This document shows positions 421-12,951 of a DNA stretch of 64,000 bases, piece after piece. Made by a program: the position numbers and the translations under genes. Within the stretch, counting starts at the first letter, position 1. Each line of letters begins with the position of its first letter. This stretch comes from a bacterium (GTDB lineage Bacteria > Oederibacteriota > CAKKQC01), in assembly GCA_919901855.1 (NCBI GenBank), contig CAKKQC010000001.1, positions 62,001-126,000 of the forward strand, given 5' to 3'. The notes under the pieces are model-generated. The model made no database searches and was not told the DNA's origin. It saw only the letters and a program-made list of their open reading frames with translations.

Positions 421-1470
421 TTATCGCGAAGCGAGGCGACGCCCGTTGGCGGCACTCTGTCCGTCCAGCACGGGAGGGAAGAGGAGATCGCATAGTCTGT
501 TCCATGTGAGTCGAGTTGGATCAATCCGCAACATGCGACACGCTTGCAGAACGGGTCCAGGGCCTTCCGAATGGAGCAGAACGTAGGCCGAGGCTCGTTC
601 ACGCCAAGCCTTTGTGATCCGAGCAGTCGGGCGCCATCCACGGATGAAAGCGCGAAGACCTTGAGGATCATTGCCCATAGAATGCCAGAAAGGCAGACAT
701 TCATAGATGGGGTCTCCTGCTAACGCATTTCCAAAATCGAAGAAACCGGTCACATGCCAACCACCGTCCTGCCTCTTCACTGCGATGTGGGTGCCGTTCA
801 TGTCACCGTGGAGCAAGGCACGACCAGACCGGTGGGGCGTGGACGTCAGAGCCGGCAACCTGTCGCGCAATTCGGCCAGGAATTCGGTGGAGAAGCGATG
901 CGATGCGGCGCAGGCGCGAAGTGCGCGCTGCGTCCAAGCGGCAGCATCGAGGCTCGGCAGTTCACGAGGTGCAGGTATGGCATGCAATTGTCGAAGCATC
1001 TGCCCGGCCTCGCGCATGACCGTCAACCAATCCCGATGCATCAGGCGGTTCGAAACCCACCGTACAGCTGTTCCGGGAACGGGGACCATGATCAGGTAAT
1101 GCCATGTCGAGCGGTCGCATAACGTTCCACTCGCCATGATGCGTGGTACTGGAGGTTCTCCTCGAACTGCCACGGCCTGTAAAGCCGCGGATTCTCTCTT
1201 CCAGTGCTGCAATCCGACGGGAGGGTAGAACTTCACCATCACTCGGGGAGTCCTTCCCCCCACAAGAAAGACGGGGCTTGAACCGAGAAACACAGGCTGG
1301 ATGCGGGCTGGCGGAAGACCGTGCCTTGCCAGCACCACTGCAACCGGGCGGCGCCAGATGCGCAACTTGTTGTTGATCCTGCCGCACGCCTTCCATGACC
1401 CGACTTGAGGCAGCAGCCTGGTGCGCATGTGCATTGCTATCGTCATGACGTGCATCGTATCAACCAGCAT
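421..1470 (-). CDS. Aminoglycoside/hygromycin phosphotransferase-like kinase (APH family)
   Basis: Up to 349 residues. The kinase catalytic loop reads LLHGDMNGTH (Brenner-type HGD...N) and is followed by GFFDFGNALAGDPIYE, the metal-binding DFG-equivalent of APH enzymes. A VMVKFYPP segment near residue 80 fits the ATP-binding lysine. This argues for ATP-dependent phosphorylation of a small hydroxylated molecule; the substrate is unknown and need not be an antibiotic. The start is uncertain: five ATGs lie within the first 15 codons. A TACGAT box 7 nt before the ATG at 1446 would favour that later start. Base composition is visibly less GC-rich than the neighbouring enzymes, so recent acquisition is plausible. 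Confidence 0.75.
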   Translation of the reverse strand: MLVDTMHVMTIAMHMRTRLLPQVGSWKACGRINNKLRIWRRPVAVVLARHGLPPARIQPVFLGSSPVFLVGGRTPRVMVKFYPPVGLQHWKRESAALQAVAVRGEPPVPRIMASGTLCDRSTWHYLIMVPVPGTAVRWVSNRLMHRDWLTVMREAGQMLRQLHAIPAPRELPSLDAAAWTQRALRACAASHRFSTEFLAELRDRLPALTSTPHRSGRALLHGDMNGTHIAVKRQDGGWHVTGFFDFGNALAGDPIYECLPFWHSMGNDPQGLRAFIRGWRPTARITKAWRERASAYVLLHSEGPGPVLQACRMLRIDPTRLTWNRLCDLLFPPVLDGQSAANGRRLASR

Positions 1471-1607
1471 TGCCGACGGAAGTACCTTACGGAGGAAGCG
1501 GTCTCTCAGCGGACGAGGGCAAGGCGGTAGTTCAGATGGCTGTTGCGGTCAAAGTCGTGGCCTGCGGCATGCCCAAGCTGGCAGGCCGGGTAACTACATA
1601 CCTGCGC

Positions 1608-1628
1608 AAGTCACCTTGCCAGTGACTT
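1608..1628. promoter_or_regulatory. Inverted repeat, candidate AbiEi autorepression operator
   Basis: A perfect 7-bp inverted repeat, AAGTCAC at 1608-1614 and GTGACTT at 1622-1628, is separated by 7 bp. It overlaps the predicted -35 hexamer of the AbiEi-like gene. AbiEi antitoxins in studied AbiE systems repress their own promoter by binding inverted repeats, so this is a natural operator candidate. The assignment is inference from position and symmetry. Confidence 0.6.
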
Positions 1629-1644
1629 ACGTAGTCTGTAGAAT
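1616..1644 (+). promoter_or_regulatory. Sigma-70-like promoter driving the AbiEi-like gene, probably leaderless
   Basis: TTGCCA (1616-1621) and TAGAAT (1639-1644) each match the sigma-70 consensus in five of six positions, with an ideal 17-bp spacer. The ATG at 1652 begins 7 nt after the -10 box, so the predicted transcription start is at or next to the start codon. No Shine-Dalgarno sequence is needed or seen. Confidence 0.65.
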
Positions 1645-1651
1645 ATCCTCT

Positions 1652-2512
1652 ATGACCACGATCCGGAAGCCCGAAAGACCCTATGGGTCCACCCTCGGAG
1701 CGCGTCTCATGGCGTCTCTCGGACAGTCGGGGCTTAGAGTCTTCGCCATCGACGACGCGAAGCGCCTGGCCGCGAAGCTCGGAATCGGCGATCACCACCT
1801 CCGCCAGCTCCTGCATCAGCTCTCCGGGGGAAGCTGGGTCCGGAGGCTCCGGCGGGGGCTCTACGTCCTCACCGACCCCGCCGGCAGGGAGCAGTCGCCG
1901 CATCCCTTCGTCATTGCCACCAGACTCGTGCAACCGTCGGTGATCAGCCACTGGTCCGCACTCTCCCACCACGAACTGACGGAACAGGTTCCCCGGGATG
2001 TCATGGCGTGGACAACGCGGAAGATCGTCACGCCGAGCATGCGAACGAGCCAGCCCCAGCCAGCGGGCCGGAGGCACGCCTGGGTCATCGACGGCACCAG
2101 GTACCAATACCACTTCACCCAACCCGAACGGTTGTTCGGAACCGAGGAAGTCTGGATCGGCGAACACGACCGCGTCCCGATCACGGACAAGTCCCGGACG
2201 GTACTCGACATGTTCATCTCGCCCCGCATCTTCGGCGGCCTGAGCGAGACGCTCACCGTCCTGGAGGACCACCGCGACGGCATCGACCTCAAGAGACTGG
2301 TCGCATATGCCGTGCGCTATGGCCAGGGCGCCGTGGCCAAGCGGATCGGCTGGGCGCTTGAACACGTCGGTGTCCCCCGGAGCGTCCTCAAGCCACTGGC
2401 GGACCTGCCAATCGGGGGCTACCGGTTGCTCGACCCCACCCGACCGCCATCGGGTCCCTGGAACGCTCGGTGGATGCTCCGGGAGAATCTTCCGCGGAGG
2501 TCGCGGGCCTGA
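1652..2512 (+). CDS. AbiEi-type antitoxin / transcriptional regulator (orphan)
   Basis: 286 residues. The N-terminal ~80 residues (AKRLAAKLGIGDHHLRQLLHQL then WVRRLRRGLYVL) form the winged helix-turn-helix typical of AbiEi antitoxins of type IV toxin-antitoxin phage-defence systems. The middle part carries the family's hallmarks: ISHWSALSHHELTEQ, YQYHF, and ITDKSRTVLDMF preceding the C-terminal helical domain. In AbiE loci the AbiEi protein represses the promoter and neutralises the nucleotidyltransferase toxin AbiEii. Here no AbiEii-like gene follows: the next gene is convergent and unrelated. The start at 1652 is chosen from the promoter spacing; an in-frame upstream extension has no recognisable domain. 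Confidence 0.8.
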   Translation: MTTIRKPERPYGSTLGARLMASLGQSGLRVFAIDDAKRLAAKLGIGDHHLRQLLHQLSGGSWVRRLRRGLYVLTDPAGREQSPHPFVIATRLVQPSVISHWSALSHHELTEQVPRDVMAWTTRKIVTPSMRTSQPQPAGRRHAWVIDGTRYQYHFTQPERLFGTEEVWIGEHDRVPITDKSRTVLDMFISPRIFGGLSETLTVLEDHRDGIDLKRLVAYAVRYGQGAVAKRIGWALEHVGVPRSVLKPLADLPIGGYRLLDPTRPPSGPWNARWMLRENLPRRSRA

Positions 2513-2642: not shown

Positions 2643-4991
2643 TCAGCCGATATGCAGGGCCAGCAGTTCGCAGGGCCCGAGGTCGAGCCGGATCGCGGGC
2701 TTGTCCGCCAGATCCTTCTCCTCGGCCTTTGCCTTGCCGTCGGCCTTGGCTTTCGCCTCGGCCGCCGCGATCTCCTTCGGCGTGAGCTTGACCTTGGTCT
2801 TGAGCGAGTCCAGGATCTGGCCCGAGGCCGCATTCGTCACCTGGCCGTCCCACGGCAGGACGATGAGCGCGTCCTTCTTCGCCGCTACCCCGGTGTTCAC
2901 GACCGCGAGGTAGGCCCCCGACTTCTCCGTCCAGATGACCCGCACGACGACCTCGGGATCGGACGACCATTCGGGCTTCCGGTCCGACCTCAGCGCCGGT
3001 AGAGCGAGGAAGGCCGCGTTGAACCGCCGCGCGTACTCGGGGAAGCCGTTCGTGTGCGTGTTCGACGCCAGGATGCCGAGCCAGAAGGGATCGCCCCAGG
3101 CGACCGCGAGGACTTCCGGCATCATGCAGAACGGCCCCGCGCGGTCGACATCCGCGACGAGGCCGCCCAGCGAGCTCCCGTCCACCCCCTCGTTGGCGCA
3201 GTACCCGCGCACCACCGCGAGGCCGTCAGGCCCGCGGAACGCGTCGAACGACGTGGCCGAGAGCCCCATGTACATCCGGCCGACCGGGTACGTGAAAGCC
3301 ACGCCCTTCGTGTCCCAGTAACGGCCGGGGTCGGCGGGCGGCGTCGCGTTGTGCCACTCGAATCCGCCGCGGTCGCGCGGGAAGGCCTGGGTCGCCTTGA
3401 GGTGCCGCTCCTCGCCGACGACCCGGCGGAGGCTGAGCGCCTCGCCCCATGCGCCCGAGGGTCCCTGGAGATTCCCGCGGAAATCGGCGGGTACGTCGGT
3501 CACGACGAGCGGGGTCCGGTCGGAGAGGGGGGGCCCGAGGGGATCGGTCCACGGCGTCACGAGCACCTCGGCCTTCGGGAACCCCGACCGCAGGGCGTCC
3601 CGCAGCCCCGCGAGGAATTCCTGGCGCTTTCCGAGCCACCACCCCTCGTAGCGGCCGCGCAGGTCGGCGTCCTTGGCAAACTGGTCGCGCGGCGGCGGCC
3701 AGTTGCCGTTCGCGTCGGCCGCGAACCGGGCGATGACGGCGTCGGCGTAGCTGACCGGCCAGGAGGCCGTCCGCGTCCGGAACCAGACCGCGGGGATGCG
3801 GAACCGGTCGCGGTACTTGAGCACCGTGCGGTCCAGGAGGCGCCTGGCGTCGTCGAGGCTCGAGGGGTCCGTCACGTCGAGGTGCCCGGGCTCGCCCCCG
3901 GGGACGTTCGTGTAGGGCTGGCGGTCTCCGCGCGCGAGCGGCCGGCACCGCACCTGCCGGTTGAGCGACAGGCTCCCCGCGTACTCGAAGTACGGGACCA
4001 CCTCAAGCCCCTGCGCGTCGAACGTCTGGAGCATCTTCTCCCAGCGGAGGGCGTCCCGCGGCGGCGCGAACCAGTCCTCGTCCCCGGCGTCCCAGCCCTG
4101 GTTGCGGCCGGCGGTTAGGAGATCCGGCGCGATCGCGTTCATCCCCAGGAACCGGGCCTGCCGCGCCCGGAACTCGAAAAACGCCTCCATGTTGTCGACG
4201 CCCGCCTCCCCCTCGCCGTCGCCCTCCGTGATCGCGGCCGACCAGGCTTCGCGGGCGAAGACCCGCCGGTGCGGAAGATTCTCCGGCAGGTGCGGCTCGA
4301 GAACGAAGACGCCGGGGTCCGGCACCTCGAATAGCCGGATCCGGGCCGCCGCCGCCCCGGCCGAGACGGGATCGTCCTGGTTCGAGGGCGCGAGGATCGC
4401 GACCCAGAACCCGTCCGGGGGGGCCAGCGGGCGGCGCATGGGCGAGCGCGTGAGCACGAGGTCCGCCGTCCGGTCGTGGAGGAAGAAGAAGAGCTCTTGG
4501 GTCACGTACTTCCGCGCGTGCGGAATGCGGTTGATGGATTCGGCGTGGCTGTCGGAGACGCCCCAGAGCCGGTCCCCGAGCGCGCCCCCCGTTGCCACCC
4601 CCCGGATCATGTCGCACCCGCGGTTCACGACGATGGCCGACCTAGGCCGGTCGTCGGGCAGGTCGATCGCGAGGACGTACGCCCCGCGGGCCACGAGTCC
4701 CTTCCCGGCCCCGATTCGCCACGCCATCCACCGGGGTTTGCCGCCCGGCGAGACGACCCGGCAGTCGCGGCCCAGGATCGTGGCGACCCCGGAGACCTCC
4801 TCGCCGGACTCGCGGAACGGATGGCGGTCCCGGCTGCTCCCGCACAGGACCTCGTCCACGAGCGGGAGCTGGCCGAAGGGCGCCCCCGCGTCCGCCATCG
4901 GCCGGCTCGCAGCAGCGAGCGTAGAGGATTCCATTGCAGCCGGGATGTCCGGCCGCAGAAAGCACGCGATCAGCAGGACTGGTGCGGTCAC
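2643..4991 (-). CDS. Secreted glycoside-hydrolase-like protein, family not recognised
   Basis: 782 residues from a GTG at 4991. The N-terminus has a short hydrophobic stretch (VLLIACFL) consistent with a signal or lipoprotein signal. The middle (roughly residues 280-640) alternates strand and helix features like a TIM barrel, with VVPYFEYAGSLSL, TDPSSLDDARRLLDRTV, AVWFRTRTASWPVSY and VLVTPWTD. A C-terminal beta-sandwich-like tail ends in LDLGPCELLALHIG, like the last domain of many glycosidases. Between them lies a charged lysine/alanine-rich insertion (about residues 725-765). I cannot point to a catalytic pair or substrate. An 8-codon upstream ORF ends on its start codon. It is convergent with the AbiEi-like gene. 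Confidence 0.6.
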   Translation of the reverse strand: MTAPVLLIACFLRPDIPAAMESSTLAAASRPMADAGAPFGQLPLVDEVLCGSSRDRHPFRESGEEVSGVATILGRDCRVVSPGGKPRWMAWRIGAGKGLVARGAYVLAIDLPDDRPRSAIVVNRGCDMIRGVATGGALGDRLWGVSDSHAESINRIPHARKYVTQELFFFLHDRTADLVLTRSPMRRPLAPPDGFWVAILAPSNQDDPVSAGAAAARIRLFEVPDPGVFVLEPHLPENLPHRRVFAREAWSAAITEGDGEGEAGVDNMEAFFEFRARQARFLGMNAIAPDLLTAGRNQGWDAGDEDWFAPPRDALRWEKMLQTFDAQGLEVVPYFEYAGSLSLNRQVRCRPLARGDRQPYTNVPGGEPGHLDVTDPSSLDDARRLLDRTVLKYRDRFRIPAVWFRTRTASWPVSYADAVIARFAADANGNWPPPRDQFAKDADLRGRYEGWWLGKRQEFLAGLRDALRSGFPKAEVLVTPWTDPLGPPLSDRTPLVVTDVPADFRGNLQGPSGAWGEALSLRRVVGEERHLKATQAFPRDRGGFEWHNATPPADPGRYWDTKGVAFTYPVGRMYMGLSATSFDAFRGPDGLAVVRGYCANEGVDGSSLGGLVADVDRAGPFCMMPEVLAVAWGDPFWLGILASNTHTNGFPEYARRFNAAFLALPALRSDRKPEWSSDPEVVVRVIWTEKSGAYLAVVNTGVAAKKDALIVLPWDGQVTNAASGQILDSLKTKVKLTPKEIAAAEAKAKADGKAKAEEKDLADKPAIRLDLGPCELLALHIG

Positions 4992-5044: not shown

Positions 5045-6247
5045 CTATTTCGACGCCTTGCCGGCCGCGGTCGCGAGGAGGCCGAGCCCGTAGGCGAAGT
5101 CCTTCTCGCGGATGATCAGGGGCGGCGTCAGCCGGAGCACCTTCTCGTCGTGCAGGGACTGCCCCACGAGGATGCACTTGCCCCGGCAGGCGGCCACCAG
5201 CTTCCGCGCCTGCTCGACGGAGACGCACTCGATCCCGAGCAGGAGGCCCCTGCCCCGGACTGCGGCCACCGTGCCCTTCTTCGCCAGCCCCGCCAGCCGG
5301 TCCAGCGCCAGCTCGCCGAGCCGGGCCGCCCGCGCGGGCAGGTCGAGGCCCATGGTCAGCTCGAGCGCCATCTTCCCCGCGGCACAACTCACCGGGTGGC
5401 CGCCGAAGGTCGTCAGGTGCGTGAGGGGCGGATCCACGGCCAGCGTGCGCATGAGCCGGGACGTCGCCAGGAAGGCGCCGAGGGGAAGCCCCCCGCCGAG
5501 CGCCTTGGCCAGGACGAGTACGTCGGGCTTGACCCCCCAATGGTCGCCCGCCCAGAGCGTGCCGGTCCGGCCCATGCCGGTCTGGACCTCGTCCAGGATC
5601 AGGAGCGCGCCGGTGTCGTCACAGCGCTTGCGAAGCGCGGGCAGGAACCCGTCGCCGGGGACGCGCACGCCCCCCTCGGCCTGGATCGGCTCGACGATGA
5701 CCCCCGCGACCTCCTTCGTGATCTTCGAGAGCGCGGTGAGGTCGCCGAACGGCAGGAACGCGACATCGGGGAGCAGGGGCTCGAACGGCGCGCGCAGGGC
5801 GGGCACCCCGAGCACCGAGAGCGCGCCCATCGTGTCGCCGTGGTAGCTGCCCTCGAAGGCGACCAGCTTCTTCCGCCCGGTCGCCTTCCGCGCGACCTTG
5901 AGCGCGCCCTCGACCGCCTCGGCGCCGGAGTTCGTGAAGTACACGCGCGCCTCGGCCATCGGCGCGAGCCCGCACAGGAGTTTCGCGTACTCCACCTGCG
6001 CCTCCTGCACGTACTCGCCCCAGACCATGACGTGCAGGTGCCGGTTGAGCTGGACCCGGATCGCGTCGATGACCTGCGGGTGCCGGTGGCCGGTGTTCGC
6101 CACCCCGATCCCGCCGAGCAGGTCGAGGTAGCGCTTGCCATCTGCCCCCTTGATCCACGCCCCCTCGGCCGAAAGGACCTCGAGCCCGTCGGGCTCGTTC
6201 GAGGTCTGGGCCAGGTACTTCATGAAGTCGTCGCGCCGGCCCGTCAT
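5045..6247 (-). CDS. Class III pyridoxal-phosphate aminotransferase (acetylornithine/4-aminobutyrate-like)
   Basis: 400 residues, normal for the family. Class III landmarks are FTNSGAEAVEGALK, AFEGSYHGDTMGALS, GVIVEPIQAEGG, ILDEVQTGMGRTG, and VLVLAKALGGGLPLGA with the Schiff-base lysine, then TTFGGHPVSCAAG. The fold transfers an amino group between an amino acid and an aldehyde or keto acid. Its ATG overlaps the TGA of the LuxC-like gene by 4 bp, so it is the last member of a LuxE-LuxC-aminotransferase operon. That context makes a role other than arginine synthesis likely; amination of the long-chain aldehyde made by LuxC is the obvious hypothesis. No other arginine genes are nearby. Confidence 0.88.
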   Translation of the reverse strand: MTGRRDDFMKYLAQTSNEPDGLEVLSAEGAWIKGADGKRYLDLLGGIGVANTGHRHPQVIDAIRVQLNRHLHVMVWGEYVQEAQVEYAKLLCGLAPMAEARVYFTNSGAEAVEGALKVARKATGRKKLVAFEGSYHGDTMGALSVLGVPALRAPFEPLLPDVAFLPFGDLTALSKITKEVAGVIVEPIQAEGGVRVPGDGFLPALRKRCDDTGALLILDEVQTGMGRTGTLWAGDHWGVKPDVLVLAKALGGGLPLGAFLATSRLMRTLAVDPPLTHLTTFGGHPVSCAAGKMALELTMGLDLPARAARLGELALDRLAGLAKKGTVAAVRGRGLLLGIECVSVEQARKLVAACRGKCILVGQSLHDEKVLRLTPPLIIREKDFAYGLGLLATAAGKASK

Positions 6248-7638
6248 CGCGACTCCAGCCGCGTCCAGTTCAGGAGCCGGCGGAACGGGGACGCGCCTCC
6301 GTGCGGCCAGGCGAGGGGCGGGGTCTGGAGCTTGCCGAAGTCCGTGAGGCGCGTGAGCCCGGCCCCCGCCTTGACCTCGGCCAACTCCCGGCGCCGGGCA
6401 TCGGGACCCGCAAACGCGATGGCATGGATCACGGCCAGATCGGTCCTGGTAGTCTTCATCGTCAGGTCCGCGTAGTCCCGAAAGGGCGCAATCCAGACCG
6501 TGCGGTAGAGCGGGACAGCGGGCATCGGTAGTTCCTCATCGTACAGGACCGTCCAGTCCAGTCCCCGGGGCGACGCCGCGCAACGCGACGGCTTGCCCGC
6601 CTGCATCCGGGCCCGGATGCGCGCGCGCCAGCTCTGGGTGAGCGCGGCCGTGTCGCGATCGGGCCGGCCGGCCGGAAGGGCGGTCGCCGCGACCGGCATC
6701 GCCCCGGCGATCGAGGTCACGACCTCGCCGGGTTCCATGAGCCCTCCGCGCTCGACGAAGACCGCCGAGAGCGAGAGGCAGCCGCGGCCGTCGTAGAGGA
6801 GGGCGTCCCGGGCCGCGGCCGCGGCGACCGCCTCGAACCGGCCCGGGTTCTGGGCCTCGCGTGCCACGACCCCCACGGCGATCCGCGGACCGTGCGCGAC
6901 GAAGGGGACGCCCGCCGGGAGTCGGCGGGCCAGCGAGACGATGGCGGGGTCGTCGCCGTACGCGATCAGGGCTCCGGCGCCCCGTAGGACCTCGGCTTCG
7001 ACCCGTTCGTCCCCACCCGTCCACGGGAGCACGGCGAGCGCGGCGCCCAGCTCCGGCGACTTCGCCGCCACCGTCGCGGCGAACAGCGCGGCAGTCAGCG
7101 GGTCCTCGCGCGCCGGCTTGAGCAGGCACGGCGTCCGCATCACGAGACAGGCCAGGAGCGTCGGGAGCCAGACCAGCGGCACATTGCCGGGCAGGACGTG
7201 GACCGCGAGCCGGGGACCCAGCGCGCGGACCATGGCGCCGTCCGGGCCGGCCACGAACCCGTCGAGCGCGGCCACGGGCGAGACCTCGGCCCGAACCCAG
7301 TCCTTGAGGTGGGGCGAGGCGCAGGCTTCGAGCAGGGGCACGAACGGCACGGTCACGCGCGGGACGCCGGCCGCCTCGACATAGGCCTCCTCCGCGAGCC
7401 GCCGTGGCTCCGAATCCGGAGCTATCCACGCGGCCACCGCGGCGTCGAGCGCCCGGATGATGGCGTCGGTCGACATGGCCGCGATCGCCCCTCGCCCACT
7501 TGCGGCACCGAAGACGGTCGATAGCGCGAGCGCCGGCGTGACCTCGGGCGTCTCGATCGTGAGGGCCCCGAGCGTCGCAAACCGGCCCGGCGGCGGCTCC
7601 ACCCCGGGTGGGAGCCAGTACCCGCGCACGGGCATCAT
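6244..7638 (-). CDS. LuxC-like acyl-CoA / fatty acyl reductase
   Basis: 464 residues. It resembles the LuxC subunit of fatty acid reductase, an aldehyde-dehydrogenase-fold enzyme reducing activated acyl groups to aldehydes with NADPH. Seen features: VHVLPGNVPLVWLPTLLACLVMRTP (the LuxC pyridine-nucleotide region, shown here in outline), LLKPAREDPLTAALFA, and DGRGCLSLSAVFVE, where the cysteine fits the acyl-accepting catalytic residue. The C-terminal QTPPLAWPHGG segment is also LuxC-like. I chose the ATG at 7638 because it lies at the LuxE stop codon (4-bp overlap); the reading frame stays open upstream but that part is antisense shadow of luxE. No luciferase genes (luxA/luxB) are present. Confidence 0.85.
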   Translation of the reverse strand: MMPVRGYWLPPGVEPPPGRFATLGALTIETPEVTPALALSTVFGAASGRGAIAAMSTDAIIRALDAAVAAWIAPDSEPRRLAEEAYVEAAGVPRVTVPFVPLLEACASPHLKDWVRAEVSPVAALDGFVAGPDGAMVRALGPRLAVHVLPGNVPLVWLPTLLACLVMRTPCLLKPAREDPLTAALFAATVAAKSPELGAALAVLPWTGGDERVEAEVLRGAGALIAYGDDPAIVSLARRLPAGVPFVAHGPRIAVGVVAREAQNPGRFEAVAAAAARDALLYDGRGCLSLSAVFVERGGLMEPGEVVTSIAGAMPVAATALPAGRPDRDTAALTQSWRARIRARMQAGKPSRCAASPRGLDWTVLYDEELPMPAVPLYRTVWIAPFRDYADLTMKTTRTDLAVIHAIAFAGPDARRRELAEVKAGAGLTRLTDFGKLQTPPLAWPHGGASPFRRLLNWTRLESR

Positions 7639-8738
7639 GGCGCCGCCACCACGGCCTGCAACTCCTCGAAGGTGAGGCCGCACCCCCGCGCTTCGGATGC
7701 GCGCGGTCGCCCCTCGAGAATGAACCCGTCCTGGCCAAGCCGCCCGAAGTCCTCGGTCAGCACCGCGGCCACGCTGCCGACGTTGGCGAGGTCCACGAAG
7801 CGCAGGAGCCCGGACGCCCCCGCGGGGACCGGTTCCAGCGTGACGGGGTCCACGACCGAGACCGCGAGCCACGGCGGCGGGAGCTTGATCCGGGGGACGT
7901 CCAGCGTGCCCTGCGGAGTTCCGGCGAGCACGCGGTCGTAGGCTTGCGAACACAGCTCGGTCATCCCGTACTCGTTCACGCACCGCTCCGGCGGGATCCC
8001 GAGCGTCCCCGCGACGCGACGGTAGAGCGCGGCCTGGAACGCCTCGGCCGGCAGCGGCGCGGCCAACCGCGCGCCCTTCTGGCCGCCCGTGTCCATGAGC
8101 CGGCTCCCGCCGGGGAGCGCGACCCGGAGCCCCGTCGCGTCGCAGTAGTCGAGGAACGCGCCCAGCGCCGCGCTTGTGGCCGCGATCAGCACCGGCACGC
8201 TCCCGCGCTGGGCGTCGAGGAGCGCCTCGGCCAGCCGGTCCCGCTCGAGGCCGCTCGCCCCGACGAACCAGCCGCTCCCGGACTCCCCGTGCGCCTCGAG
8301 GACCCAGCCGAGCATCCGGGACAACGACGAGTGGGGACGCAGCTCGGGCGGCGGTGCGAGGACTAGCGTCCTCAGCTTCCAGCCTTCGGGGAGCAGGCAC
8401 CGGGCGAAGTGCGCGAGGGCGCCGGCGCGGTACGGCTCGAGATCGGGGAGGAAGTGCCGCCCGCGCCCCGTCCCCGTCGTCCCCGAGGTCCGGAACTCGG
8501 CGGCCGGCGTGCCGCAGACGAACTCGAGCTCCTTGAATGCGGCCACGGGCACCGCCGGGATCGCGGCCACGGTGGTGACGGTGACGGGGGCCACCCCCGC
8601 GCCGTCACACCACGCGCGGTAGGCGGGATTGGCGCCGTGCTGGTGGGCGAAGACGTCGAGGGCGAGGGACTCGAAGGGCTCGGACGACCCGGCGGAGCCC
8701 TGAAACCGGAGGACCCGATCCCGGATCGCGTCAGCCAC
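7635..8738 (-). CDS. LuxE-like acyl-protein synthetase (fatty acid-activating)
   Basis: 367 residues. LuxE activates a fatty acid as acyl-AMP and passes it to LuxC. Diagnostic motifs are FRTSGTTGTGRGRHF (adenylate-forming motif, from about residue 105) and CVNEYGMTELCSQAYD (LuxE signature, near residue 245). The C-terminal part has RFVDLANVGSVAAVLTEDFG as in LuxE. It begins 12 nt downstream of a small membrane protein gene and overlaps the LuxC-like gene, so the pair should be made together. With LuxC it would convert fatty acids to fatty aldehydes in the cytoplasm. Confidence 0.85.
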   Translation of the reverse strand: MADAIRDRVLRFQGSAGSSEPFESLALDVFAHQHGANPAYRAWCDGAGVAPVTVTTVAAIPAVPVAAFKELEFVCGTPAAEFRTSGTTGTGRGRHFLPDLEPYRAGALAHFARCLLPEGWKLRTLVLAPPPELRPHSSLSRMLGWVLEAHGESGSGWFVGASGLERDRLAEALLDAQRGSVPVLIAATSAALGAFLDYCDATGLRVALPGGSRLMDTGGQKGARLAAPLPAEAFQAALYRRVAGTLGIPPERCVNEYGMTELCSQAYDRVLAGTPQGTLDVPRIKLPPPWLAVSVVDPVTLEPVPAGASGLLRFVDLANVGSVAAVLTEDFGRLGQDGFILEGRPRASEARGCGLTFEELQAVVAAP

Positions 8739-8750
8739 GGCGGGGACCGG

Positions 8751-8951
8751 TCAGTCCGTGGCGGTGAAGAAGTCGGGGACGGCGACGAGGAGCATGGCCA
8801 GGAGCGCGATCACGAGGCCCAGGAGCATGAGCATCGGCCAGATCGCCTTCGTGCGCTCGGATTCGACCTGGGTCGCCTTCCACGAGGCCCAGAACAGGAG
8901 GGCCGAGCCCCCGACCAGTCCCAGGTGCCACCACGGTCCGCCATGCAGCAT
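8751..8951 (-). CDS. Small two-helix membrane protein, first gene of the LuxE-LuxC operon
   Basis: 66 residues with two hydrophobic segments (about 6-22 and 40-58: WHLGLVGGSALLFWASW and MLMLLGLVIALLAMLLVAV) and a short charged loop. I do not recognise a family. The ATG at 8951 is chosen because a TACCAT box ends 9 nt upstream, the same geometry as other genes that begin transcription units here. A GTG 7 codons upstream is an alternative. Its position 12 bp before luxE suggests a membrane-linked role in the same pathway; this is inference. Confidence 0.6.
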   Translation of the reverse strand: MLHGGPWWHLGLVGGSALLFWASWKATQVESERTKAIWPMLMLLGLVIALLAMLLVAVPDFFTATD

Positions 8952-8986: not shown

Positions 8987-10975
8987 ATGAGAAGATACCT
9001 CCCGATGAGGCTCCCGGGCACCACCCGATTCCTCCCCGCCGCCCTCGCGGCCATGCTGATGCCCGGCGTTTCCCTTTCCGCCGACGACTCCGACCTTTCG
9101 CCGGGCGCCGAAGCCCCGGTGACGGGTTCCACGCCGCTCATGCGGCAACTCTCCGCGGTCCCCGAGCCCGGCCTCAAGGCGTTCCGGTTCCGGGCGGCGG
9201 TCCGGACGGACACGCTCACGCGGGCAGCCACGCTTACCCTCAACGTCGGCGCCCGCGGCGCCGTCGTCCGGCTGGAACCCGGCACCGACCCCTCGGGGAC
9301 CGTCATCGAGCGCGTCGTGTACCCCGCCCGCGTCAAGCTCTGGACCCCGGCGAAGCCCGTCCAGTTCCAGCTCGAGGCGACGATCGAATCGGGCGGCCGC
9401 AGGGTCGACCGGCGCGTGATCCGGTTTCCGATGCGAACCGTCGAGGTGCGCGACGGCACCGTCTGGCTCAACGGCGCGCGGCTCCCCATCCGCGGCGCCG
9501 GCGGCCTCTCGGGCGCGCCCCTGGAGGCGGACCTCCGGCGGCTGCACGCGCAGGGCTTCAACCTGGTCCGGCTCGGGGACGCGATCGTCGATCCCGCGGC
9601 CCGCGAGGCCTGCGCGGCGCACGGCCTGCTCGTGCTCGAGGATCTCCCCGCCCCGCCGGCGATCGAGCGCGCAGTCGCGACGGAACCTCCCGCGCCGGAC
9701 GCCGCCGCCCTCGAGGCCCACGGCCTCCTGGCGCCCTTCGGCAGCGCCACGGCCTTCACCGAGGCGTGCCGGGTCCGCCAGGCGGAACGCATCCGGCGGA
9801 AGCTCGAGGACCTCCGGTTCGACGCCGAGTCGCCGGGCTCTCTCATAGAGGGCTGGTGGACGCTCGACGACACGCTGACGCGCGTCTTCGCGCGCTGGCT
9901 CCTGGCCGCGCGCCTGTCGCGCCGGCTGATCGAACCCGGCGCCGCCCCCCTGGTCACGCTCCTGCTCGCCGGGCCGGCTCCCCTCCCCCGCGATGCCGCG
10001 GTCGAGTGGCGCCTGCTGGAACCGGTCGAGTGCGCGCGCCCGTCCCGGACGGGATCGGGCGCCGCCGGCCCGCCGCCGCCGAAGCCGCCGCCGTGGCGGC
10101 CCGCTCCAGCCGCCGTCGCGGGCGCGGCCGGCGTCTTCGGCGCAGCCGGTGCGTTCGGGGCGACGGCCGCGTCGGGCGCCACCGCCTCGGCCGCGTTCGC
10201 CCTGCCCGCCGTCACGCGTCCGGGCGCCTGGTTCCTCGAGGCCCGCGTGCGCCGGCAGGGCCGGACCCTCGCCCAGACCCGCGAGGGCTTCGGCGTGGTC
10301 TCCGATCCTTCCTTCTCCCAGATCTCGTTCGCCCTGCTCGGCACGTCGCCCGAGCTCGAGCGCGCGTTCGCCGCCTGGCTCATCCCCGCCGATCTCGCGG
10401 ATGCGACCGTCGTCGTGCACCCCGCCCGCGTCGGCGCCGAGGCGCTCGCGGCCATGGGCCGTAGCCTCGCCGCAGGCCGGAAGGCCATCTTCCTCGCGCT
10501 CGACGCCGACGACACCGCCGCGCTCAACGCCTGGGGGGGCCTCGGCTTCACGCTCACACTCACCGGCGAGGGGGAGGCCGCGCGCGGCGCCGCGGTAGCG
10601 GCGGGGGCCGGCCTGGCCGGCCCGCGTGCACATTGGTTCCGCCCCGGCCCGTTCGCGAACCGCTCCCCCGCTCCGTGGGGAGCCCCGGCAGACGGCGCCG
10701 ATCCCGGCCGGACGCCCCGGTGGCTGGCGGACGAGGGGGACGAGCCGCTCCTGCCGGCGCTCTCGCTGGCCCCCCCGCCGGGCGCCACCGTCTGGGCCGG
10801 CTCCGTTGGGCCCGGGGTTTCGCCGTCCGGCGAAACTCCGGGCACCGCTTGGGGTGCAGACATCCTCGTCGTCCGCGCGGGAGCCGGCCGCGTGGTCTTC
10901 TGCCAACTGCGCCTCCTGGAGCATTTCGAGCAGCAGTTGGCGAAGCTGACGTTCCTGCGCCTGCTGGCCCTGTAA
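8987..10975 (+). CDS. Secreted degenerate GH2-like protein
   Basis: 662 residues with a signal peptide (TRFLPAALAAMLMPGVSLSA). Residues ~60-170 look like the beta-sandwich preceding a GH2 catalytic domain; VWLNGARLPIRGAGG at ~155-170 is the typical entry to a GH2 TIM barrel, followed by LRRLHAQGFNLVRL. After that the barrel is eroded: I cannot find the NE acid/base or the nucleophile segment. A low-complexity Gly/Ala/Pro stretch (~360-405) and a palindromic insertion (10817-10857) interrupt the second half. It is therefore probably a non-catalytic or strongly diverged relative. It reads away from the LuxE operon. Confidence 0.6.
   Translation: MRRYLPMRLPGTTRFLPAALAAMLMPGVSLSADDSDLSPGAEAPVTGSTPLMRQLSAVPEPGLKAFRFRAAVRTDTLTRAATLTLNVGARGAVVRLEPGTDPSGTVIERVVYPARVKLWTPAKPVQFQLEATIESGGRRVDRRVIRFPMRTVEVRDGTVWLNGARLPIRGAGGLSGAPLEADLRRLHAQGFNLVRLGDAIVDPAAREACAAHGLLVLEDLPAPPAIERAVATEPPAPDAAALEAHGLLAPFGSATAFTEACRVRQAERIRRKLEDLRFDAESPGSLIEGWWTLDDTLTRVFARWLLAARLSRRLIEPGAAPLVTLLLAGPAPLPRDAAVEWRLLEPVECARPSRTGSGAAGPPPPKPPPWRPAPAAVAGAAGVFGAAGAFGATAASGATASAAFALPAVTRPGAWFLEARVRRQGRTLAQTREGFGVVSDPSFSQISFALLGTSPELERAFAAWLIPADLADATVVVHPARVGAEALAAMGRSLAAGRKAIFLALDADDTAALNAWGGLGFTLTLTGEGEAARGAAVAAGAGLAGPRAHWFRPGPFANRSPAPWGAPADGADPGRTPRWLADEGDEPLLPALSLAPPPGATVWAGSVGPGVSPSGETPGTAWGADILVVRAGAGRVVFCQLRLLEHFEQQLAKLTFLRLLAL
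10817..10857. repeat. In-frame paired palindromic element (copy 1)
   Basis: Hairpin 1 has perfect 9-bp arms, GTTTCGCCG (10817-10825) and CGGCGAAAC (10828-10836), with a 2-nt TC loop. Hairpin 2 follows at once, GCACC (10842-10846) with GGTGC (10853-10857). It encodes a PGVSPSGETPG segment inside the GH2-like gene. The same layout recurs at 18554-18605 and 34689-34735. Confidence 0.6.
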
Positions 10976-11028
10976 GGACCGGGCGGGACCTGTCCAACCC
11001 GGCGGGGGTATGATGTTTGCCACCTGAC

Positions 11029-12951
11029 ATGCTGCACACGCTTGTCTGCCTGAAGCAGGTTCCCGACACGACGCAGGTCAGAATCTCGCCGGAGACGGGG
11101 ACCCTCATCCGCGAGGGCGTCCCCTCGATCGTGAACCCGTACGACACGCACGCGGTCGAGGAGGCGCTGCGCCTCAAGGAGCGCTACGGGGGCATGGTGA
11201 CGGCCATCAGCATGGGACCCCTACAGGCCCGCGAAGCCCTGCAGAAGGCGGTGTCGCTCGGCGTGGACGAGACCTTCCTCCTCAGCGACCGGTTCTTCGC
11301 GGGCGCGGACACGTGGGCGACGAGTTACGCACTCGCCGAGGCGATCCTGTACTTCGGCCGGGAGCGCCCCGTGGACCTCGTGATCTGCGGCAAGCAGTCC
11401 ATCGACGGCGACACCGCCCAGGTCGGCCCCGGCATCGCCGCCCGGCTCGGCTGGACCCAGCTCACGTGCGTGGACTCCGTGCTCGAGATCGACGTCAAGG
11501 CTCGCACGATCCGGGTCCGCCGGAGGCTCGAGGGCGCGCACGAAACCCTGGTCGGACCCCTGCCCGCCGTGCTCACGGTCGTCAAGGAGATCAACGAGCC
11601 CCGGCGGGCGAAACTGCCCGACCTCATCCGGGCCCTGCGGACGGTCCCGCCCGTCGTGACGGCCGCGGACCTCAAGCTCGACCCCAACCTCACCGGCCTC
11701 AAGGGCTCGCCCACGAAGGTGCGCCGGGTCTTCCCGCCGCCGGCGAGGACGGGCGGCGAGCTGATCCGCCCCGCGGGCCCGGGCGAGGCGGTCCGGATCC
11801 TGATCGACCGGCTGACCCACGCGGGACTCCTCGACGCCCTGCGCCGCGGCGGGACGGCCGCCGCCCGGGGCCGGCACCTGCCGCAGGCAGGCGCCTCGTC
11901 CGCGATTCCCCTCACCGAGGGCCGCCCGGACGAGGGTGCCCGCGGCGTCTGGGTCTTCGTCGAGCAGGCGGGCGAGTCCGCCGCCCCGGTTTCCTGGGAG
12001 CTGCTGGGCATCGCCAAGGAGCTCGCGGCGGATCTCTACACCGAGCCCGCCGCCATCGTGCTCGGCCACAAGGTCGATCCGCTGGTGCGCGAAGCCGTCG
12101 CTTACGGGGCCGCCACCGTGTACGCCATCGACGATCCCATCCTCGCCCACTACCGCACCCAGCCGTTCACGCACGCGCTGACGAGCCTCGTGAAGCGGTA
12201 CAACCCCGAGATCCTGCTGCTGGGGGCGACGACGACCGGCCGGGACCTCGCGAGCGCCGTCGCGACGCGGGTGCGCACGGGGCTGACCGCGGACTGCACG
12301 AAGCTCGCGATCGACAAGGAACGCCAGCTCCTCGAGCAGACCCGGCCCGCGTTCGGCGGGAACATCATGGCCACGATCATGACCGAGAACCACCGCCCCC
12401 AGATGAGCACCGTGCGGCCGCGCGTCATGCCCATGCCGGCCCGCGACGCCGGAATGAGCGGGCGCGTGATCCGCGAGAAGCTCGGCCTCGACGAGAAGGA
12501 CGTGGGCGTCAAGCTGCTCGAGTTCACCCGCGAGGACCTTGCCGAAACCGTCAACCTCGACGACGCCGAAGTCATCGTCTCCGGCGGGCGCGGCATGGGA
12601 TCGAAGGAGAACTTCCGGCTGCTCGAGGACCTCGCCGGGGCCCTCGGCGGCGTAGTCGCCGCCTCCCGGGCCGCCGTGGACGCGAAGTGGATCAGCTACG
12701 CCCACCAGGTCGGGCAGACTGGGCGGACCGTTCGCCCCCGCCTCTACATCGCCTGCGGCATCTCGGGCGCGGTCCAGCACCTCGTCGGGATGCAGACGAG
12801 CGACGCCATCATCGCGATCAACAGCGACCCCACCGCGCCGATCTTCTCCGTCGCCACCTGGGGCGTGGTCGGCAACGCCGTCGAGATCGTGCCCGCCCTC
12901 ACGGCGGCGCTGGCGGCCGCGGGCTTCGCCCGCGCCGGAGACCCGGCATGA
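11029..12951 (+). CDS. Fused electron transfer flavoprotein, beta and alpha subunits (FixA-FixB-like)
   Basis: 640 residues: a complete ETF-beta half (~1-265; LVCLKQVPDT, NPYDTHAVEEAL, LVICGKQSIDGDTAQVGP) joined by a Gly/Arg-rich linker to an ETF-alpha half (~305-640; VWVFVEQ, SGGRGMGSKENFRLLEDLA, ARLYIACGISGAVQH-like, AIIAINSDPTAPIF). The alpha half has the FAD-binding C-terminal domain. ETFs pass electrons between NADH or dehydrogenases and quinone. With FixC and FixX directly downstream, this looks like a FixABCX-type module, some of which bifurcate electrons to ferredoxin and quinone. I chose ATG 11029; a TATGAT box at 11009-11014 could be its -10. Fusion of both subunits in one chain is uncommon. 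Confidence 0.9.
   Translation: MLHTLVCLKQVPDTTQVRISPETGTLIREGVPSIVNPYDTHAVEEALRLKERYGGMVTAISMGPLQAREALQKAVSLGVDETFLLSDRFFAGADTWATSYALAEAILYFGRERPVDLVICGKQSIDGDTAQVGPGIAARLGWTQLTCVDSVLEIDVKARTIRVRRRLEGAHETLVGPLPAVLTVVKEINEPRRAKLPDLIRALRTVPPVVTAADLKLDPNLTGLKGSPTKVRRVFPPPARTGGELIRPAGPGEAVRILIDRLTHAGLLDALRRGGTAAARGRHLPQAGASSAIPLTEGRPDEGARGVWVFVEQAGESAAPVSWELLGIAKELAADLYTEPAAIVLGHKVDPLVREAVAYGAATVYAIDDPILAHYRTQPFTHALTSLVKRYNPEILLLGATTTGRDLASAVATRVRTGLTADCTKLAIDKERQLLEQTRPAFGGNIMATIMTENHRPQMSTVRPRVMPMPARDAGMSGRVIREKLGLDEKDVGVKLLEFTREDLAETVNLDDAEVIVSGGRGMGSKENFRLLEDLAGALGGVVAASRAAVDAKWISYAHQVGQTGRTVRPRLYIACGISGAVQHLVGMQTSDAIIAINSDPTAPIFSVATWGVVGNAVEIVPALTAALAAAGFARAGDPA

Follow-up and report, generated by a model that had tools for sequence, protein, structure and literature searches.

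Certain tRNAs of most bacteria carry queuosine at the wobble position, as do those of people, who get it from microbes. QueE yields 7-carboxy-7-deazaguanine (CDG), and TGT needs preQ1, the aminomethyl form. In the standard de novo pathway, which comprises FolE, QueD, QueE, QueC, QueF, TGT, and QueA, QueC forms the nitrile preQ0 and QueF reduces this nitrile (PMC11130926). Genome surveys score queuosine makers by the presence of QueD, QueE, QueC, and QueF (PMC11130926). The conversion of CDG to preQ1 changes an acid to an aminomethyl group and matches the chemistry of acid to aldehyde to amine (PMC11130926). An enzymatic cascade from fatty acid to amine is known from TamA and TamH of the tambjamine natural product cluster (PMC9594044), and in the flagellar glycosylation islands of Aeromonas, LuxE adjoins LuxC together with genes for an acyl carrier protein (ACP), an oxoacyl-ACP reductase, and glycosyltransferases (PMC7874193).

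Here we describe an operon encoding LuxE-like and LuxC-like proteins and a class III aminotransferase (AT). Judging from sequence comparisons, the three enzymes quite likely constitute a nitrile-free route to preQ1 that replaces QueC and QueF. The operon was found in the window, which is the whole 64,000-nucleotide stretch of DNA that was analyzed and is part of the genome designated G000.

Structure and distribution of the operon

The operon lies on the minus strand (5045-8951) and has four genes separated by one 12-bp gap and two 4-bp overlaps, exactly as the earlier note described. The first gene encodes a small membrane protein (8751-8951, minus strand; 66 aa, two-helix) whose Pfam match to YwiC-like is below the cut-off and which is found only in the family of the window. 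After the 12-bp gap comes the gene for a LuxE-like adenylate-forming acyl-protein synthetase (7635-8738, minus strand), which starts with GTG and whose product is the candidate CDG-activating enzyme. It is joined by an ATGA overlap to the gene for a LuxC-like acyl reductase of the aldehyde dehydrogenase superfamily (6244-7638, minus strand), the putative releaser of 7-formyl-7-deazaguanine, and this gene is joined by another ATGA overlap to the gene for a class III pyridoxal phosphate (PLP) AT (5045-6247, minus strand), which represents type I of the LuxE-linked ATs and would be the preQ1 maker. The N-terminal part of a listed 718-aa open reading frame (6244-8400) is frame read-through, and the LuxC start is at 7638. 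The operon contains no luciferase gene and no queuosine gene adjoins it in the window; the link to queuosine comes from relatives and from the gene content of the genomes.

Two large proteins are encoded on either side of the operon. The one at 2643-4991 (minus strand) is without any match and is missing from the contig of the related genome G001, and the one at 8987-10975 (plus strand) has a weak beta-galactosidase-type match and a partial relative on that contig. Further out, the protein at 1421-2512 (plus strand) has a weak AbiEi-type antitoxin match below the cut-off, and a single 644-aa frame at 11017-12951 (plus strand) encodes a fusion of FixA (ETF beta) with FixB (ETF alpha) that has two ETF domains and ETF_alpha; FixC-like and then FixX-like genes follow up to 14536.

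All four operon genes are kept in order in G001, an 83% complete genome from the same family but another genus (identities of 63% for the AT, 55% for LuxC, 70% for LuxE, and 79% for the small protein). When 384 genomes were searched for LuxE, 25 had matches, of which 18 were strong (E <= 1e-50), and a scan of GTDB contigs added 80 named LuxE loci. LuxC or an AT lies near LuxE in 49 loci, and in 22 of these a class III AT is the immediate neighbor of LuxE/LuxC. Since G001 keeps all four genes and the AT recurs in these 22 loci, the operon is beyond chance, and the earlier note's treatment of the genes as a unit is borne out by a gene order that is conserved elsewhere. The AT-linked loci span Binatota, Omnitrophota, Verrucomicrobia, Deltaproteobacteria, Eremiobacterota, Myxococcota (Minicystis rosea), and others, and they occur in two gene orders, LuxE-LuxC-AT and AT-LuxE-LuxC. 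Natural single reading frames combine LuxE with LuxC in L047 and L078 and LuxC with the AT in L051.

Loci from Bacteroidetes (L075-L129) have a LuxE-like gene with no nearby LuxC, and four checked genomes of this group are without QueC. The L027 locus belongs to genome G377, which has no QueC match, and there QueD lies upstream of a LuxE-like gene. These loci possibly represent a further variant with another reductase.

Active-site residues, fold, and phylogeny of the three enzymes

The LuxE-like protein belongs to family PF04443 (42.1 bits against a cut-off of 24.9; E = 6.7e-11) and includes the C-terminal acyl-accepting Cys of the family, and it falls far below the equivalog cut-off for bioluminescence (NF052244; 39 versus 550 bits). 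Its C353, located in an RGC motif, is the predicted acyl-accepting residue; this Cys is invariant in 17 relatives, and the LuxE profile aligns with LuxE of P. phosphoreum (7xc6_E), including the Cys of GCSL. The LuxC-like protein likewise belongs to its family (PF05893; 170 bits, E = 1e-49), including the conserved active-site Cys, and misses the bioluminescence equivalog cut-off (NF052251; 63.6 versus 750 bits). The sole column passing 90% conservation among its relatives is a Cys, and C287 is the predicted nucleophile. The model of the LuxE-like protein (pLDDT 88) has PaaK-type aryl-CoA ligases as its best PDB folds, with a phenazine biosynthesis protein also ranking high. These ligases and the phenazine protein act on planar aromatic acids, and the modeled fold appears compatible with such a substrate, a point that is suggestive only and not decisive.

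In ArgD and GabT, the arginine of an HGR motif binds the substrate carboxylate. A signature-residue alignment of the AT of the window (PF00202; 337 bits, Aminotran_3 E = 1.9e-100) identified the PLP lysine K248, HGD at residues 136-138, QAEGG, and the C-terminal R372. The position of the HGR arginine is occupied by Asp in the clade of the window AT, as in BioA, and by Leu in most of the type II clade. The residues of the LuxE-linked ATs fit a substrate without an amino-acid carboxylate. In the phylogenetic tree, the AT of the window forms a clade with those of G001, L057, and L051 (support 100/100), and this clade is nearest to putrescine aminotransferase, PatA (88/83). Another 37 LuxE-linked ATs form one other clade (type II; 99/94), with no AT from LuxE-negative genomes inside. 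Because the LuxE-linked ATs fall into two separate clades, their pairing with LuxE-LuxC probably arose at least twice.

When type II LuxE-linked ATs were used as queries, 19 LuxE-positive genomes without an adjoining AT proved to carry a solo AT of the same clade at another place (467-593 bits), whereas the best match in LuxE-negative genomes was at most 344 bits (Fisher 5e-6). No queuosine neighbors of these solo ATs were found in the surrounding stretches of up to 19 kb. LuxE-positive genomes without a type II AT include three Sumerlaeota, G161, G397, G401, G405, G407, G408, and Bacteroidetes, and a type II AT was likewise not seen in the LuxE genomes G056, G343, and G204.

Queuosine genes beside the trio and in the same genomes

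QueE is encoded on the same strand immediately upstream of AT-LuxE-LuxC in L047 and L061 and upstream of LuxE-LuxC in L073, and the QueE of L061, a Verrucomicrobium locus, exceeds the NCBIfam cut-off. In three loci of one family, a gene for a QueF-superfamily protein of about 109 aa lies between the AT and LuxE (L033:8214-8543; L035:9390-9719; L038:8950-9285). This protein retains the Cys and Glu of QueF; since the catalytic Asp and the KSLK motif are missing, normal nitrile reductase activity is improbable. No preQ1 riboswitches near the trio were revealed when 28 sources were scanned with Rfam, a negative that is uninformative about the route.

Among the 22 AT-linked genomes, canonical QueC and canonical QueF are both absent (0/22 each), TGT is present in all 22, and QueA is present in 21. 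QueE is found in most of them; it is weak in G384 and G389 and was not found in G001, whose genome is 83% complete. At a threshold of E < 1e-40, canonical QueC was detected in 1 of the 18 strong LuxE-positive genomes versus 248 of the 366 others (384 genomes), with Fisher p values of 1.2e-7, or 4.6e-5 with the LuxE side collapsed to 12 families, that overstate independence because the genomes are related and kinship is uncorrected. Within the phylum of the window, canonical QueC is present in 38 of 43 relatives, none of which has a LuxE match at 1e-10, and the operon-bearing G000 and G001 are without canonical QueC or QueF. What the sequences show directly is gene linkage and co-occurrence, a gap in the standard pathway, and conserved catalytic residues in the trio. 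The adjoining QueE in relatives, the missing QueC and QueF, and the presence of TGT and QueA together link the trio to 7-deazaguanine metabolism.

G000 itself encodes QueE (G000:C42), TGT, and QueA. The TGT and QueA genes overlap (G000:C23) and both proteins are above NCBIfam cut-offs; the QueE, which was missed by the first QueE profile (A5) and found with a broader one (A6), is identified by profile and by a CxxxCxxCDT motif and is below the NCBIfam QueE cut-offs. A QueC-like protein of G000 scores 58 bits against a cut-off of 150, a QueF match of 24.5 bits is below the cut-off, and no QueD was seen in the stretches of G000 examined. Among the strong-LuxE genomes, G161 alone retains both canonical QueC and canonical QueF, and it has no AT of the type II clade. 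Its LuxE-LuxC pair (L039, G161:C76) immediately follows LeuCD-like genes and probably serves another function.

A divergent QueC-like family, designated here QueC2, has SGGxDS-type and CGxCNKC motifs and is found in 9 of the 22 AT-linked genomes (G000, G001, and seven others), with scores of 75-123 bits versus 240-280 for typical canonical QueC. It occurs in 13 of the LuxE-positive genomes checked and is rare elsewhere (L198:9632-10315, L199, L200-L204, L209-L211, L215-L217). The presence of QueC2 in G000 may leave room there for a partly different route, and a preQ0 step may exist in any of the nine AT-linked genomes that have it.

A candidate route to preQ1 and its relation to known systems

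The earlier note read the operon as a pathway from fatty acid via aldehyde to amine. The logic of activation, reduction, and transamination as a conserved unit survives; the fatty-acid substrate is unsupported, as 7-deazaguanine metabolism is where the genomic links lead, and a cascade from fatty acid to amine, for which that note knew of no described system, has a precedent in TamA/TamH (PMC9594044). That LuxE and LuxC make a fatty aldehyde which the AT turns into a long-chain amine or an amino lipid is unlikely. The LuxE and LuxC of luminous bacteria do use fatty acids, the AT resembles putrescine aminotransferase most and is without the carboxylate-binding Arg, and TamA/TamH show that such a cascade is workable (PMC9594044). 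However, in the neighborhood survey genes for acyl carriers or for fatty-acid or lipid metabolism did not recur beside the AT-bearing loci, the three loci with a PlsC-like gene near LuxE-LuxC all being without an adjoining AT; the LuxE and LuxC sequences are far under the NCBIfam cut-offs; and neither the adjacency of QueE nor the fact that these genomes are without QueC and QueF would be explained. The same adjacency counts against the quite unlikely alternative that QueC2 makes preQ0, that an unidentified enzyme stands in for QueF, and that the LuxE trio is unrelated. Although QueC2 is present in 9 of the 22 AT-linked genomes and its gene adjoins those for a FolM-like SDR (6 loci) and sometimes QueD (L210, L215), the other 13 are without any QueC-like protein at the threshold used, yet all have TGT and nearly all have QueE.

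It is barely plausible that the trio makes ornithine or lysine by reducing and transaminating glutamate or 2-aminoadipate in the manner of ArgD or LysJ. The AT has sub-cut-off matches to ArgD and LysJ, and LeuCD-like genes and a PLP gene of Cys/Met metabolism are found near LuxE-LuxC in Eremiobacterota, with LeuCD also in L039. Against this, the score of the AT for argD (TIGR00707) is 350 bits versus a cut-off of 410, and the HGR Arg is replaced by Asp or Leu in the LuxE-linked ATs. Moreover, G000 harbors a separate class III AT that has HGR and groups with ArgD in the tree, and the ArgD function is thereby accounted for. With the HGR Arg missing and a separate ArgD-like gene present, a role as ArgD/LysJ in lysine or ornithine synthesis was rejected, and the AT of the window does not belong to the acetylornithine clade, as the reading of the earlier note required.

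In the preQ1 route that we favor, QueE would supply CDG, whose carboxylate would be adenylated by LuxE with ATP and then held as a thioester. LuxC would reduce the thioester with NAD(P)H to 7-formyl-7-deazaguanine, and the AT, for which glutamate is the probable donor, would turn this aldehyde into 7-aminomethyl-7-deazaguanine (preQ1). TGT and QueA would then build queuosine into tRNA from preQ1. The substrate, intermediates, cofactors, and amino donor are inferred. More broadly, it is likely that a widespread pathway from CDG via 7-formyl-7-deazaguanine to preQ1 was assembled at least two times with different ATs and replaces QueC/QueF in many phyla. If so, many organisms scored as salvagers or as incomplete would be queuosine makers, 7-formyl-7-deazaguanine would be a natural intermediate, and LuxE/LuxC would act in nucleobase chemistry, quite apart from fatty aldehydes. 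In the literature searched, which did not include bioRxiv and most subscription journals, we found no report linking LuxE/LuxC to queuosine or naming 7-formyl-7-deazaguanine.

The proposed route shares with the canonical queuosine pathway QueE upstream, TGT and QueA downstream, the starting compound CDG, and the end product preQ1, and differs in that the nitrile steps of QueC and QueF are exchanged for an aldehyde and a transamination. With TamA/TamH it has in common the activation of an acid by ATP, reduction of a thioester, and PLP-dependent transamination to a primary amine, whereas TamA/TamH has ANL-ACP and thioester reductase domains, a fatty-acid substrate, and a place in a natural product cluster. 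LuxE also stands beside LuxC outside bioluminescence in the Aeromonas islands, but the ACP, oxoacyl-ACP reductase, and glycosyltransferase genes of those islands are absent here. The LuxC-LuxE fatty acid reductase of bioluminescence (PDB 7xc6) consists of the same two families, with an acyl-accepting and a nucleophilic Cys; in contrast, the operon described here is without luciferase, its proteins are far below the equivalog cut-offs, and its genomic ties are with an AT and with genes for queuosine.
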